Assembly: GCA_028867675.1 (NCBI GenBank)
Contig: JAGWGA010000006.1
Span: forward strand, 1 to 58,374
From: Nitrososphaerota archaeon
Lineage (GTDB): Archaea; Thermoproteota; Nitrososphaeria; Nitrososphaerales; Nitrosopumilaceae
DNA length: 58,374 nucleotides
Reading direction: 5' to 3'
Made by a program: the position numbers and the translations under genes. Below, one piece after another: positions 2,874 to 39,241 of this stretch (position 1 is its first letter; each line of letters starts with the position of its first letter). Below the pieces are notes generated by a model. That model was not told where the DNA came from, did not search any database, and worked only from the letters and a program-made list of their open reading frames with translations.

Positions 2874-3317
2874 CTAATGGGGAATCATATTTACATAATA
2901 GATAAGAGCGTCTGAGCCAACCTTGAGTGCAAACTTGATGAAACCTTCTATTGCTTCATCTTCCAATTTGTCTCTTAATTTGTCACCTAATTGTTTTAAC
3001 TCCTTCTTTGTTTCGGGATTTCCTTGTATTTTATCAATTAACCCGTTGTACGATTTCTTGTCTTTCACAAGTTTGACAGGTAACAGATGTTTACGAAAAA
3101 TACCAATACCTTCGGGTGTAATAGTAAATCTGCAATCATCACCTGCTGTCTGATCAAAAGGTCTTAACAAATTTGCCTGCGAAAGTTTGTTCAATGACGC
3201 CCAAATTGTACCAGTTACATTAATTTCTGGTAGTATACTTGGAGGCGCTTGTATAGTTACATATCTTACGTTAATAGTTGCTGGGGCCCATCCTTTACCT
3301 TGTTCGACATTTCTCAT
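2874..3317 (-). CDS. Winged-helix-like hypothetical protein
   Basis: A 147-residue protein that I do not recognise by name. Residues about 30-75 read like a winged-helix domain: a helical stretch (IWASLNKLSQANLLRPFDQ), then a beta-wing ending FTITPEGIGIFRKHLLP, a pattern common in small archaeal wHTH regulators. The C-terminal half is charged and helical (residues 85-135) and ends in a short hydrophobic stretch. A TATA-like CATATTTAG on the minus strand lies about 22-26 nt before the start codon. It is convergent with pheT. A DNA-binding role is inferred from pattern only. Confidence 0.6.
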   Translation of the reverse strand: MRNVEQGKGWAPATINVRYVTIQAPPSILPEINVTGTIWASLNKLSQANLLRPFDQTAGDDCRFTITPEGIGIFRKHLLPVKLVKDKKSYNGLIDKIQGNPETKKELKQLGDKLRDKLEDEAIEGFIKFALKVGSDALIYYVNMIPH

Positions 3318-3692
3318 TTGTTGAATTGCTAAATATGATAGAACCTATCTCTCAAGATCAGAAGTTCCAGATAACAACACAATCCCATAATGCTAACAAG
3401 TTTAATAGATTGTTGGAGTGCACACTATGAGCCATGTCTAAATGAATTCTTCACCATTACCTTACAGTTAATGAGAATCAATGAATTCTGCAAGCCAAGA
3501 ATTCCAAAAGATATTTTCTACACAAATTTACACCTGTCACTAATGTAAATGTGGCATCTACATATGGTGTAAATTGTGGTTTTGAGTGTACGTAAACAAA
3601 AGTAAAATCAACAGGCTTGTAAAAACACCTAAATCGATATTTGATCAGATATTATTTTCTAATCTATAGTAATCAATTTTACATGATATTTT

Positions 3693-3719
3693 ATCGTGAG
3701 GCACAAAAACCCTCACGAT
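3693..3719. repeat. Perfect 9-bp hairpin in intergenic region
   Basis: ATCGTGAGG (3693-3701) and CCTCACGAT (3711-3719) are exact reverse complements separated by a 9-nt A-rich loop (3702-3710). It lies in the AT-rich stretch between 3318 and 4215, away from any gene start, and is followed by a short T run. It could be a terminator, part of a small RNA or a protein-binding site; nothing else visible decides between these. Confidence 0.6.
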
Positions 3720-3910
3720 TTTAGGCTTGGTCAGTTATGGGTAGCCATCAGATGATTGGTTCTTGTAATATCTTAAGTCTCAAGCTCAATGTTGTCAATA
3801 ATTTGGTAGACTTTTTTCTTATCATGATATATCATACCATAATATCAAAAACACGCTCAAAATCTCTGAATTCTGATCAATCACAATAAATTACTCGATA
3901 GAAGAACAAT

Positions 3911-33636: not shown

Positions 33637-35397
33637 CTAAAAAAGATCTTGGACTACTTTTTGAATGCTTACAATCTCTTCTTCTTCTTGCTTTATCTTC
33701 TTCTCAATTACTCTTACCATGGAATCCTGCCAAACATGGTGAGAGAAGAAGTTATGGTAGGTATTTGCAGCCGTCATCTCATCGTCTACTACAGTATCTT
33801 CCAGGAATTTGGTCACAACTGTATCTGTTAATTTTAGGATGCGCTGGTTTAGCTTGACACTCTTGAATATTGGCTCTAGTTTTGCAATGTCTTCCTTAAA
33901 GTCATCCTTTGTTAGAAGAATCTTTTCATGGAGGATCTTAAAGTAAACTGCAACAAAGAATAATGTTGCATATCTCTTTGTCTTATGGCCTCCCTTCTTT
34001 CCATAGTTTAAGGATTTTTTTGCATACTCCTTGACAAAATATGGATAAAGTAACAGTCTAAAATCATCCTTTAATTTCTCATTGAAGACCTCGTCATACT
34101 TGCTACCTCTTGGCAAGAATTGTGCAGGAGAACTATAGGCTTCTGTTGGTCTTTGTTCAATGCCTGCAACAAAGGCCTGTATGGCATCCTTTGCTACAAT
34201 GACTTTTTTGTGGTTGTCTGGCAAGTATTTGTTGTAAATTACATCTCCAACAAATTCGCTTTGATGTGACTTTGTCTTGGTATCAAATGAACCTCCTTGT
34301 ATTTCATAAAAATAATGGATGTTTTCCATTTGTGATTTTAGTGATTTATGAAAATCCATCAAAGATACAAGATCTTTTCCTCTTACTGCATTTTGCGAGT
34401 TTCTGTATTTTGTAATATTATTTTGGTCTAGTTCATCTGCAGCTTTTATTATTGTGACAGTTATACTTCCATCCAAGTTATGTGTACGTCTTGCATGGTC
34501 TAGTACTGAGTTTGATGTCTGTGCTCCGTTTACTATCTGAGGAGAATGTAATACAATGGAGTTATCTTCCAATTCCTCAAAATCACTTACAACTATGGTA
34601 ATTCCGTTGTTGTAATAGAAGAACTTGTGAGGCACTTCTTGGAGTGTTTCTCTCAACCCCTTGTTAACTGTAGTTTTAAACTGCATCCACTGACGTATGT
34701 TTGATTCAAAGACATAGTCCTTGTTCTTTGTGACAAAATTTGTCAGTTCTCTTAATTTCAAAATACCAAGAAGTGTATTTTGATATCGTAGTTTTGTCTC
34801 AAGTTTAATTGATGCCTTTTTACCAGCAGCTGGTTTTTTTATCCTATCCCAAAGTTTTCGAACTATGACATCAACATCATAAATTTCAACAGAATCAAAA
34901 TTCTCATCCTCTACCTTTTGGTCAGTTACATAGATGCATTCTATCTTGAGATTCTTCTCCTGAATCTTTGTAACTAGATGTGCAAGTTCTGGACGCATCT
35001 TTGCAATATCTTTACCTTGTAATCTCTTGACATCTTCTCTGAATTTTACTATGGCTTCAATAGAGTGAGATGTTCCATACTTTGACTGGAATAGATAGAT
35101 CTTGTCTTCAGAAAAGTCAACTGGCAGATATGCATCAATTCCTAGATCGTTTGCTCCATCAATTATTGCATCGGTTGCATCATCCTCTGTTGCCTCAAAT
35201 ACTCTGGTTAATACCCATTGCAAAAAGTTGTGACCTTTCTCAACCTCGTTTTGTGCACTTTCCGCATATTCTTTTATTGAATCTTTTACATTTTGTACAA
35301 ATCCATCAAGTGGCATACCGTTTGTATTCTGATATGCTATAGGTTTTGCACCTGGAATGTATTCTAGTAACCCGTTACTTCTTTCAGCCAAATTCAA
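33637..35397 (-). CDS. AIPR-family protein with N-terminal nuclease-like domain
   Basis: A 586-residue protein of the AIPR (abortive infection phage resistance) family: FFYYNNGITIVVSDFEE and SPQIVNGAQTSNSVLDHARR are its hallmark segments (about 260-310). The N-terminal 180 residues look like a Mrr/PD-(D/E)xK module: GANDLGIDAYLPVDF (D88) and KIYLFQSKYG (Q104-S105-K106). So it probably cuts DNA or RNA when triggered by phage or foreign DNA. It stands alone as a defence gene, with no toxin-antitoxin or restriction partner adjacent; a candidate RNA abuts its 3' end. Confidence 0.85.
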   Translation of the reverse strand: MNLAERSNGLLEYIPGAKPIAYQNTNGMPLDGFVQNVKDSIKEYAESAQNEVEKGHNFLQWVLTRVFEATEDDATDAIIDGANDLGIDAYLPVDFSEDKIYLFQSKYGTSHSIEAIVKFREDVKRLQGKDIAKMRPELAHLVTKIQEKNLKIECIYVTDQKVEDENFDSVEIYDVDVIVRKLWDRIKKPAAGKKASIKLETKLRYQNTLLGILKLRELTNFVTKNKDYVFESNIRQWMQFKTTVNKGLRETLQEVPHKFFYYNNGITIVVSDFEELEDNSIVLHSPQIVNGAQTSNSVLDHARRTHNLDGSITVTIIKAADELDQNNITKYRNSQNAVRGKDLVSLMDFHKSLKSQMENIHYFYEIQGGSFDTKTKSHQSEFVGDVIYNKYLPDNHKKVIVAKDAIQAFVAGIEQRPTEAYSSPAQFLPRGSKYDEVFNEKLKDDFRLLLYPYFVKEYAKKSLNYGKKGGHKTKRYATLFFVAVYFKILHEKILLTKDDFKEDIAKLEPIFKSVKLNQRILKLTDTVVTKFLEDTVVDDEMTAANTYHNFFSHHVWQDSMVRVIEKKIKQEEEEIVSIQKVVQDLF

Positions 35398-36172: not shown

Positions 36173-36268
36173 GCAATTAAATCCAAAAACCCTCGATAAA
36201 AGACTTTGAGTGGAAAAAAACTATGCTAGGAACAATTTATACACACTTTTTTAGTCAATAAAGTGTCC

Positions 36269-37024
36269 ATGGTTTGGTTGACTGATGCTCATATTCACCT
36301 ATCAGACAACGAGTATTTGTCGGATTTACCGTATATCCTAACAGCTATGGACCGATTGAAGATTAAAGCTTGTTGTGTTTCCATGGATAATCAAACTTCA
36401 AAAGCTTCACTAGATTTAGGAGAACGTAGTCCACTAGTTCTTCCCTTTATTGGGATTCATCCAGAAAAAGCATCCGATGATCTTGATTTCATGATGGACA
36501 TGATTAAACAAAATTCTGGTAAAATATCTGGAATTGGAGAGATTGGTCTTGATAAGACATATGTCTCCGATGAGGCCGGTTTCTCAAGACAAGTATTTGT
36601 ATTCAAAGAATTACTATCTCTTGCAGAAAAATTAGGAAAACCCGTATCGATTCATTCTAGAAAAACTCTGGATGAAATATTTTCTATACTTCCATCTTAT
36701 TCAATCAAGGGTGTACTACTCCATTGGTTTTCTGGTAGCAAAAAGCAATTGCAACAAGCCATGGATCTTGGTTGTTATGTATCATATGGGCCTGCTATGG
36801 TTTACGCCGAAGACAAGCAAGTTCTTCTTTCATTGACTAGTCAAGACAAGATACTAGTAGAGACCGATGGGCCGGTAAGATTTTCAAGATGCTTTGGACA
36901 AAAAACTGCACAGGTAACATTTCTACCTAGTGTACTTTTTTGTGCAGCCTATGTGCTGAACAAGCCATATGATGAGATGTTGTCAATTACTGAGAAAAAT
37001 ACTAGTTCGTACCTTGGTGTATAG
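36269..37024 (+). CDS. TatD-family metal-dependent hydrolase
   Basis: A 251-residue TIM-barrel hydrolase: TDAHIHLSD supplies the first metal ligands, GIGEIGLDKTY the catalytic Glu, VSIHSRKTLDE and LLHWFSGS further His, VETDGPVRFSR the final Asp. TatD proteins are 3'-5' DNases or RNases or related phosphodiesterases. ATG 36269 is chosen; a GTG at 36263 would add two residues. TATA-like AATTTATAC lies about 30 nt upstream. Confidence 0.88.
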   Translation: MVWLTDAHIHLSDNEYLSDLPYILTAMDRLKIKACCVSMDNQTSKASLDLGERSPLVLPFIGIHPEKASDDLDFMMDMIKQNSGKISGIGEIGLDKTYVSDEAGFSRQVFVFKELLSLAEKLGKPVSIHSRKTLDEIFSILPSYSIKGVLLHWFSGSKKQLQQAMDLGCYVSYGPAMVYAEDKQVLLSLTSQDKILVETDGPVRFSRCFGQKTAQVTFLPSVLFCAAYVLNKPYDEMLSITEKNTSSYLGV

Positions 37025-37055: not shown

Positions 37056-37322
37056 GTGAATAGAATCAAAAAGATTTCCATGGAGTTAATGACTACTTAT
37101 AAAGGAAAATTTGATAATGATTTTGTACACAACAAAAAAATTCTAAATGAAATAGCAATTGTACGTTCAAAGGGTCTTAAGAACGAGATTGCAGGCTATA
37201 TTTCCACTTATATCAAAAGAGAATTACAAGACAAGGCAGAAAAAGAATCCGAAGCAGCAGCAATTGCTCATGATGAAACAGTTGAAGAAACTGAAGAGAT
37301 CGAAGAGCAAATTCTTAACTAG
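37056..37322 (+). CDS. rps17e: 30S ribosomal protein eS17
   Basis: An 88-residue small-subunit protein of archaea and eukaryotes: VNRIKKISMELMTTYKGKF, then FVHNKKILNEIAIVRSKGLK and IAGYISTYIKREL. The C-terminus carries an additional acidic tail (ETEEIEEQ). GTG 37056 is used because GGTATAAAAAAC (about 37024-37034) lies about 26 nt upstream, as for a leaderless mRNA. The longer frame from 36969 overlaps the TatD gene and is not credible. Confidence 0.9.
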   Translation: MNRIKKISMELMTTYKGKFDNDFVHNKKILNEIAIVRSKGLKNEIAGYISTYIKRELQDKAEKESEAAAIAHDETVEETEEIEEQILN

Positions 37323-37367: not shown

Positions 37368-38144
37368 GTGTTAACTGTAAAACTACTGGGCGGAGCCAAA
37401 AAATCGTTTTCGTCGGAAAAATTAGAGATTCCAAGTGATTCCATGAATGTATCCGCTCTTTTAGAATATTTAGAAAAAAATACTCTAGAAAATATGCCAC
37501 ATCTTGATCCTAACAATATTCTAGTTGCAATAAACGGCATTGATTCATCTGCATTACAAGGAAAAAATACTTCATTAAAAGATGGGGATGTTATTAGTAT
37601 AATTCCACTAGTTCATGGAGGTGCATCAAAGAGAATACAGTTTAGTTTAATGAAAAATTTTGTAGAACTGGTACGACTCAAAAAAACACAAGACTCGATT
37701 AAATTCATAGAATCACTAAGGGAAAAATATTCTGACGTTACAATCCAAGGCGTCAGAGATCCTTTTATCTTGAATGCAGAACACGCAAAAAAGATTATCT
37801 CAATTTCCTTGTCTGCACAAAAGGCAGATACTTTACTTTCAAATAAAATTGAGACTGATATTTTGATGAGATTTGCATGTACAAGACAAATTAGTGAGGC
37901 AATCTCCAAAGCTGGCGTAAAAAAGAATGCTGATTCAATATTAGTTATGATTGGAAAAAAATCAGACCTTGACAAGATATTTTCTGAAATTGAAGATCTT
38001 CTAACCAATAGTGTATTTTCAAAAGACAATTCTGGATTGATAAAAAAAGAATTTGGAATAACGGAAAAACAACTTGAATGCATAATCTCTAAAACTCCAT
38101 TGGAAGACCTGCTAGCAGAAAAGTCTGCGGTATTATTCCATTGA
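37368..38144 (+). CDS. Ubiquitin-like (MoaD/ThiS/Urm1) domain fused to KEOPS subunit Cgi121
   Basis: A 258-residue fusion. Residues 1-85 form a beta-grasp domain of the MoaD/ThiS/SAMP type, ending IIPLVHGG with the Gly-Gly at 84-85 (codon of G85 at 37620-37622). Normally Gly-Gly is the C-terminus and is adenylated or thiocarboxylated; here about 170 residues follow. That part matches Cgi121: a strand-rich start (DVTIQGVRDPFILNAEHAKK) and FACTRQISEAISKAGVKKNA. Cgi121 delivers tRNA to the KEOPS complex that makes t6A. The fusion could be a pro-protein cut after Gly-Gly, or a permanent domain pair. GTG 37368 is supported by a TATA-like CATATACT about 26 nt upstream. Its end overlaps the convergent THUMP gene by 12 nt. 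Confidence 0.82.
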   Translation: MLTVKLLGGAKKSFSSEKLEIPSDSMNVSALLEYLEKNTLENMPHLDPNNILVAINGIDSSALQGKNTSLKDGDVISIIPLVHGGASKRIQFSLMKNFVELVRLKKTQDSIKFIESLREKYSDVTIQGVRDPFILNAEHAKKIISISLSAQKADTLLSNKIETDILMRFACTRQISEAISKAGVKKNADSILVMIGKKSDLDKIFSEIEDLLTNSVFSKDNSGLIKKEFGITEKQLECIISKTPLEDLLAEKSAVLFH

Positions 38145-38654
38145 ATCGCGCTTGAGTTTTAGAGTACTGATTATGTCTTCCTCTTTTAGAATAGACACGC
38201 CTGTTATGCCGCCCATTATCTGAATCATGACGTTCCAGTCATAGGTCTCTAAAGAGACCTTGTTTGGAATGATGTCTGCGATTGCATCTATTAGTTCCTT
38301 TGAGGATATCTCGTTGCCTCTTTTTTCAATTGTGATACGATAGGTATCTGTATCCTTCATGACCTTGACTTGACTTCTGACACTTTCTACTATATTTTCA
38401 AGACCTGTTGTGGTAGACTGTCTTAGTGGAATAAATCTATGACAGTATCTCATCCTCCACGGTTCATCAAGAATTATTTTTTTTATTTCACTTATGGCAA
38501 CAAATGGATCAACTGAGGTGTCTATCCAAATAATTCCTGAAAAACTAGATTTGCCTATTCTTGGATGTTCGTCTCCCAGTTCTTCAATAATTTCGCCAAT
38601 TTCATCACATGCTTCTTCTTCGAGATGTCGACTACAGGTTACTATTAAATTCAA
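38133..38654 (-). CDS. THUMP-domain protein (Tan1-like)
   Basis: A 173-residue protein with the N-terminal ferredoxin-like NLIVTCSRHLEEEACDEIGE and a THUMP core (DTDTYRITIEKRGNEISSKE, PNKVSLETYDWNVMIQIMGG). THUMP domains bind the tRNA acceptor end; the Tan1 type helps Nat10/TmcA-like enzymes make ac4C. No catalytic domain is present. It shares a 4-nt ATGA overlap with the Sua5 gene upstream, so both are tRNA-modification genes on one transcript. Confidence 0.87.
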   Translation of the reverse strand: MNLIVTCSRHLEEEACDEIGEIIEELGDEHPRIGKSSFSGIIWIDTSVDPFVAISEIKKIILDEPWRMRYCHRFIPLRQSTTTGLENIVESVRSQVKVMKDTDTYRITIEKRGNEISSKELIDAIADIIPNKVSLETYDWNVMIQIMGGITGVSILKEEDIISTLKLKRDSME

Positions 38655-39241
38655 ACTAGATTCTCCAATTTTATTTTGCCCTGTCTCACTATTTTTAATT
38701 CATTGCCAACAACTTCGACTATGGTGGATTCACCAGAATTTGAAATTTTTCCTCCATCTAATAGAATATCATAGCCTGAAAATTCGTCCAAAATCTCCTT
38801 TGAATCATCAAATGAAGATTGTCCAGAAAAGTTTGCACTAGTACCTACAAGCAATCTGCATTTTTCTAAAAGAGAAAGTACACCGGGATGATTTGGAACT
38901 CGTACTGCAATTTTACCTTCAAGACCTAAAGACTCTGCAATTTTTCTGTCTTTAACTGGAAGAATTAATGTAACAGGACCAGGCCAAAACTTGTCTGCAA
39001 TCTTTTCTGATATGGCATCAAAAAATGCTATGCTTTCTACATCTTTTTTGGAAAAAGCTAGAACCGGAAGCTGCTTCATTTTCTCTCTGCCTTTTATGTT
39101 GTATATCTTGTTAACCGCATCCGAGTTGTACGGATCGCATCCTACTCCATAAACAGTATCGGTTGGAAAAACAATAATTCCTCCTTTCTTAATGGAATCA
39201 TAAGCATCTCTTATTCCTAGTTCATTACACTGAAGAATCAC
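38651..39241 (-). CDS. Threonylcarbamoyl-AMP synthase (Sua5/YrdC)
   Basis: Makes threonylcarbamoyl-AMP from Thr, bicarbonate and ATP, the first step to t6A37 on tRNAs. The 196-residue YrdC domain shows GGIIVFPTDTVYGVGCD, KGREKMKQLPVLAFSK, WPGPVTLILP and GTSANFSGQ. It lacks the Sua5 C-terminal domain. It heads a two-gene operon with the THUMP protein and lies within 1 kb of the Cgi121 fusion, which acts in the following step. Confidence 0.93.
   Translation of the reverse strand: MILQCNELGIRDAYDSIKKGGIIVFPTDTVYGVGCDPYNSDAVNKIYNIKGREKMKQLPVLAFSKKDVESIAFFDAISEKIADKFWPGPVTLILPVKDRKIAESLGLEGKIAVRVPNHPGVLSLLEKCRLLVGTSANFSGQSSFDDSKEILDEFSGYDILLDGGKISNSGESTIVEVVGNELKIVRQGKIKLENLV

Follow-up and report, generated by a model that had tools for sequence, protein, structure and literature searches.

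A ubiquitin-like domain joined through an internal Gly-Gly to the KEOPS subunit Cgi121 in Nitrosopumilaceae: a probable pro-protein and its candidate JAMM protease

A 258-aa fusion of a ubiquitin-like (Ubl) domain to Cgi121, a subunit of the KEOPS complex, is encoded by an open reading frame with a GTG start at positions 37368-38144 (forward strand) of the window, the 58,374-nucleotide stretch of nitrosopumilacean DNA analyzed here. Judging from sequence comparisons, this fusion is probably (roughly 0.7) a pro-protein that is cut after Gly85 by JAMM-A, a JAMM protease encoded elsewhere in the genome, to give a free Urm1/SAMP-like sulfur carrier or modifier and Cgi121. The architecture itself is not new; what is new is the comparative evidence for a cut and for the protease likely to make it. 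The fusion was reported in 2010, beside S17e, in all Thaumarchaea then sequenced (Makarova and Koonin, PMC2948915). The present gene has the same architecture, archaeal group, and S17e neighbor and is the same thing, so the preliminary description of this DNA overstated its novelty. SAMPylation of KEOPS or coordinated functioning was proposed for the fusion at that time; the passages there on the fusion hold no account of split homologues with a stop after His-Gly-Gly (HGG), of short tails after Gly-Gly, or of an association between JAMM proteases and the fusion (PMC2948915). No later experimental work on the Ubl-Cgi121 protein was found in the literature searched, most subscription papers being outside its scope. 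As far as this literature shows, the split-tail-fusion series and the JAMM association are apparently new to specialists.

Domain organization

The Ubl domain, of Urm1/ThiS-type beta-grasp fold by Pfam and Foldseek, comprises residues 1-85 (37368..37622, +). The Pfam profiles ThiS (residues 7-85, 2.3e-11) and Urm1 (residues 2-85, 6.6e-8) both match over cut-off, and both matches finish exactly on Gly85. Gly84-Gly85 is encoded by GGA GGT (37617..37622, +), and the predicted cut site lies directly after it, at the point where split homologues stop. The domain scored below the NCBIfam cut-offs for Urm1_like (29.4 vs 70 bits) and SAMP1 (17.8 vs 60) and is therefore named Urm1/ThiS-type only. A short, poorly conserved junction of residues 86-88 (Ala-Ser-Lys; 37623..37631, +) leads into the Cgi121 domain, residues 89-258 (37632..38141, +). 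Here, NCBIfam NF011465, 'KEOPS complex subunit Cgi121', matches residues 108-256 (1.6e-33; 116 bits vs a cut-off of 40) and Pfam CGI-121 (PF08617) matches residues 120-235 (9.7e-8, over cut-off). Scanning the two halves separately gave the same domain calls as the whole protein. Foldseek agreed, placing the N-terminal part with Urm1/SAMP1/MoaD structures (2k9x, 2l52, 1fm0) and the C-terminal part with Cgi121 structures (4ww7, 7kjt, 8up5; probability 1.00). Both assignments of the preliminary description, a MoaD/ThiS/Urm1-type domain ending in Gly84-Gly85 and about 170 residues of Cgi121 after it, were borne out. In KEOPS, Cgi121 brings in the tRNA via its CCA end, and mjCgi121 binds both Bud32 and that end (PMC7718258).

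An AlphaFold2 model built from an alignment of 45 relatives contained two well-defined domains with a mean pLDDT of 89. Its weakest block was 81-90, which holds the junction (pLDDT 68). The last Ubl strand runs to residue 80 and the strand that opens the Cgi121 domain begins at 89, leaving residues 81-88 free of strand or helix. The model is thus least sure at the junction, which speaks for the pro-protein reading. An internal start yielding free Cgi121 was considered and rejected: the first Met past Gly-Gly is residue 95, which is not conserved and lies just beyond the modeled first Cgi121 strand (89-94).

Split, tailed, and fused forms

P0001 matches were present in 353 of the 400 genomes of the class, and the closest named relatives were Candidatus Nitrosotalea. 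The open frame was intact in 79 of 80 loci from named GTDB species and in more than 100 class genomes, a set that overlaps the named one and includes several single-contig assemblies. Split homologues with a stop after Gly-Gly exist, as expected if fusion were a sequencing or assembly error, but this many open frames leave an artefact, which the preliminary description had allowed for, with a negligible probability, and we reject it. The one broken frame (L276, around 3001-3778, Candidatus Nitrosotalea sp. TS) is frameshifted within the Ubl, probably through misassembly.

All analyzed loci with both parts were fused in family f1, which corresponds to the Nitrosopumilaceae by its named loci. 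Most other families encode the Ubl separately, upstream of Cgi121; the two genes are usually direct neighbors and often share a few bases. Conservation of the fusion in Nitrososphaerota, a question left by the preliminary description, thus holds for the Nitrosopumilaceae, where the fusion is fixed, while the other families mostly keep two genes. The separate Ubl genes end exactly in HGG-stop or, in several lineages, in HGG followed by 1-9 residues. The tails seen were S, SR, ML, GTAF, SPKPA, MVGV, CL, GCL, CLRYDGEVE, L, A, SSH, STL, QY, AQ, and QEAYGSVK. A stop after Gly85 had been named beforehand as a reason to doubt the finding; such stops do occur in other families of the class, and the finding stands, because they make the fusion a derivative of a two-gene operon that became fixed in Nitrosopumilaceae.

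Fusions are not confined to one family. In genus g28, some members are fused and others are split with exact HGG; two of the g28 fusions have HGG-M at the junction, where the M looks like the former Cgi121 start codon. More fusions occur in f22 and f24. Outside the class, a Ubl gene lies directly upstream of Cgi121 in at least six loci (L404, L406, L407, L408, L409, L411); restriction of the pair to one lineage was rejected, since it is spread over the whole class and occurs in further classes of the phylum. From this distribution, we infer that the two-gene operon was the ancestral state and that fusion evolved repeatedly; the present fusion arose when the stop codon between the two genes of this old operon was lost. 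The partner also seems interchangeable, since in two genomes (G282 and G461) a Ubl near Cgi121 is fused after HGG to an unrelated phosphoribosyltransferase. These loci (L052:582-1439 and L402:489-1421) belong to two distant families, one of them outside the class. The series from HGG-stop through HGG with a short tail to full fusion suggests how modifier precursors can arise once a trimming protease exists.

Conservation of the Gly-Gly

Among 118 fused loci, 116 had HGG. The two exceptions come from the same genome, G271, and G109 was counted twice, so that 115 of 116 genomes keep HGG. The motif was also present in 79 of 79 intact named loci, a set that overlaps the 118 loci in species. By comparison, residues 86-91 were at most 53% conserved among the fused loci, with Ser the commonest residue after Gly-Gly. 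HGG, Asn56, Asp74, and other Ubl positions do not vary in the family, even where overall identity falls to about 45%. This conservation amid variable flanking residues is evidence that the junction Gly-Gly is under selection. As encoded, the pair is internal in the fusions but terminal in the split homologues, and it would become C-terminal in the fusion only if the chain were cut.

The 0.8 Mb draft genome G271 (L065:589-1512) holds the only Ubl-Cgi121 fusion that lacks Gly-Gly. A frame error was ruled out, since the translation is an open frame in which Gly-Gly is missing. An S17e-like frame overlaps upstream of this fusion.

A second Ubl, an E1, and a thiolation enzyme

The genome-wide statements that follow rest on profile searches. 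The only full-length E1 of the genome (ThiF/MoeB-type; L002:1447-2763, G000 contig C11) itself bears an N-terminal Ubl, with an internal Gly-Gly-Ser before the E1 domain. This Gly-Gly was kept in the 17 Ubl-E1 sequences aligned, although their linkers differ greatly in length. The two Ubl domains detected in the genome are therefore both internal, with Gly-Gly followed by Ser or Ala. A third ThiS-family Ubl was not found by profile search of the genome, of which 2-3% is missing. Any free Gly-Gly Ubl here must come from a fusion, unless the profile missed one or it lies in the missing 2-3%.

The genome also holds a PP-loop enzyme of NcsA/TtuA type, which did not reach the NCBIfam NcsA cut-off. 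With the Urm1-like Ubl and the MoeB/UbaA-like E1, an E1-like activating enzyme, all three parts of the Urm1/SAMP2-NcsA/Ncs6 pathway of tRNA 2-thiolation are represented. The likeness has limits: the Ubl here is not free as encoded, and the Urm1_like, SAMP1, and NcsA cut-offs were unreached.

JAMM proteases and tails after Gly-Gly

Two JAMM/MPN+ proteins with complete catalytic motifs, JAMM-A and JAMM-B, were found in the genome. JAMM-A (G000:C202) matches PfJAMM1 (1.5e-14) and, below cut-off, the haloarchaeal desampylase. JAMM-B matches AfJAMM and is nearly universal in the class, including genomes with nothing after Gly-Gly. Because the two types overlap in Pfam E-value, JAMM-A was scored by sequences, tree, and an A-type profile, and the counts take in an E1-linked branch that is more divergent but clusters with JAMM-A. 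For the association tests, junction classes and JAMM calls were transcribed by hand from the program outputs.

Of 47 genomes in which residues follow Gly-Gly (tailed or fused), 46 carried JAMM-A, vs 19 of 50 with an exact HGG-stop. In the first set, of representative genomes, the counts were 34/34 tailed vs 13/32 HGG-stop (Fisher 2e-8), and 11/11 vs 9/28 (p=1.5e-4) with f1 and f3 removed. In the second set, picked before its JAMM-A content was known, they were 12/13 vs 6/18 (p=0.0024). The single miss, G255, is a fused genome available as a draft that is 84% complete; among the positives, the G163 sequence is truncated at a contig end. All 6 inferred tail gains fell on branches with JAMM-A (p=0.014; gene tree of Ubl plus Cgi121 with a rough ancestry correction); with six events, the tree-aware association is modest. 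Several near-complete genomes lack JAMM-A, and all of these are exact HGG-stop (e.g. G096, G168, G278, and G004). Its relation to PfJAMM1 and this co-occurrence make JAMM-A a candidate Ubl protease. Its presence in 19 of 50 HGG-stop genomes counts against the pro-protein reading and implies that it has other work, namely deconjugation.

In G271, whose fusion has no Gly-Gly, neither JAMM type was detected; this fits the pro-protein reading but, coming from a single 82% complete draft, is suggestive only. In a group of loci (L187-L192 and neighbors; G351, G246, G325, G342, G310, and G020), a gene of a divergent JAMM branch is separated from a Ubl-E1 fusion gene by some tens to hundreds of bases, a further hint that JAMM proteases and Ubl fusions work together.

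Cutting or a permanent link

Several Ubl fusions with an internal Gly-Gly are known to be cut. In Haloferax, HvJAMM1 cuts a linear SAMP1-MoaE test fusion precisely after Gly-Gly in vivo, where no cutting was observed for a version lacking Gly-Gly (PMC4443979). Mycobacterium tuberculosis MoaX is cut between Gly82 and Ser83, as its function requires, by a protease that was not identified in that work (PMC4326299). Deinococcus DRJAMM cuts the natural MoaD-MoaE fusion DR2607 (PMC8832034). Each of these proteins has, like Ubl-Cgi121, an N-terminal beta-grasp Ubl, an internal Gly-Gly, and a functional partner, and MoaX has Ser after Gly-Gly, which is also the commonest residue there in the Ubl-Cgi121 fusions. 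They differ in that their cut is established, by JAMM in two cases, whereas that of Ubl-Cgi121 is predicted, and in that the partner here is Cgi121 of KEOPS rather than MoaE and the Ubl is Urm1/ThiS-like. The Caldiarchaeum ubiquitin precursor CsUb-pre is likewise trimmed after Gly-Gly by a JAMM, Rpn11; CsRpn11 leaves SAMP precursors alone, and this choosiness of an archaeal JAMM counts against assuming a cut here (PMC6043591).

The preliminary description had offered either a pro-protein releasing a modifier or a permanent link. The split HGG-stop forms, the HGG invariance, the JAMM association, and the known cuts now better support the pro-protein, which is likelier on these comparisons, and the permanent link keeps a smaller share of the probability. 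In the latter case, the Ubl would be an extra KEOPS domain linking t6A to another process, with Gly-Gly serving folding or contacts. We consider this unlikely. It would fit the fixation of the fusion throughout Nitrosopumilaceae and the span of only about 8 residues between the modeled folds, which may hinder protease access, and G271 suggests that such a form can exist. However, split Ubls of the same kind directly upstream of Cgi121, even in the same genus, end at Gly-Gly or shortly after it, and a buried structural need fails to explain why HGG precedes a stop in some loci, a variable tail of 1-9 residues in others, and Cgi121 or a phosphoribosyltransferase in yet others. The Gly-Gly-Ser within the second Ubl fusion also argues for cutting, and the JAMM association would be left unexplained by a permanent link. 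A relic, in which the Ubl lost its carrier function after fusion and the Cgi121 half alone matters, is very improbable. The fusion is derived, a relic would at first keep the motif, and one lineage, G271, did lose it; yet HGG, Asn56, Asp74, and other Ubl positions stay invariant, the profile search turned up no third, free Ubl that could do the work instead, and the E1 and NcsA-type enzyme were kept.

The pro-protein could also be cut by a protease other than JAMM-A, either one outside the JAMM family or JAMM-B, an MPN+ protein whose HSHP...S..D motif is complete and which occurs nearly class-wide. The MoaX study, too, named no protease (PMC4326299). This is quite unlikely, since JAMM-B is present also where nothing follows Gly-Gly and so does not track a need for trimming, whereas JAMM-A tracks tails and is a PfJAMM1/desampylase relative. 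Against JAMM-A stands fused G255, in which it was not detected.

Predicted pathway and significance

Eukaryotic ubiquitin is made fused to ribosomal proteins. The Ubl-Cgi121 fusion would likewise keep two tRNA-modification factors in equal supply. We infer that a JAMM/MPN+ metalloprotease, most likely JAMM-A, cuts after Gly85, leaving a Ubl that ends in Gly85 and, by analogy, a Cgi121 that starts at Ala86. The free Gly-Gly end would then be adenylated by the only full-length E1, itself a Ubl-E1 fusion. Because the E1 and the NcsA/TtuA-type PP-loop enzyme are present, the released Ubl would probably act as sulfur carrier in tRNA 2-thiolation by the latter, and perhaps also as a protein modifier. 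The released Cgi121 would join KEOPS for t6A.

If the protein is cut, the ubiquitin-ribosomal protein precursors would have an archaeal counterpart, in a group that ranks among the most abundant archaea, and the Nitrosopumilaceae Ubl pathway would be entered through a JAMM protease. The precursors Ub-ribosomal protein and CsUb-pre also carry a C-terminal extension and have ribosomal or translation genes adjoining, but here the Ubl is a Urm1/ThiS-type carrier and the partner a tRNA-modification subunit. A broader proposal, which we offer tentatively and at somewhat below even odds, is that Nitrosopumilaceae lock both Ubls in fusions (Ubl-Cgi121 and Ubl-E1), making a desampylase-type JAMM the obligatory gate of the whole Ubl pathway. 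The supply of sulfur carrier would then depend on the same cut as that of the KEOPS subunit, and tRNA thiolation, t6A, and protein conjugation would be coupled. Through the split-tail-fusion series and the JAMM association, the fusion noted in 2010 becomes a testable case.

Neighboring genes

An S17e-like ribosomal protein gene (37080..37322, +; Pfam Ribosomal_S17e 2.2e-14) lies 45 nt upstream of the fusion gene, and the two are probably co-transcribed. It is preceded by a TatD-type nuclease gene (36263..37024, +; Pfam TatD_DNase 3.9e-47). On the other side, a THUMP-domain gene (38133..38654, -; Pfam THUMP 2.8e-6) is convergent with the fusion gene and is followed by Sua5/TsaC (38651..39241, -; TIGR00057 9.3e-47, over cut-off), the L-threonylcarbamoyladenylate synthase of the first step of t6A. 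The product of Sua5 is the substrate of KEOPS for t6A. Of the 75 named relatives with enough flanking sequence, all kept TatD, S17e, and THUMP, and 74 kept Sua5. About 2 kb upstream of the fusion gene, the window also encodes a 586-aa AIPR-family protein (33637-35397, -; Pfam AIPR 1.1e-54); the annotation of this family refers to abortive phage infection.
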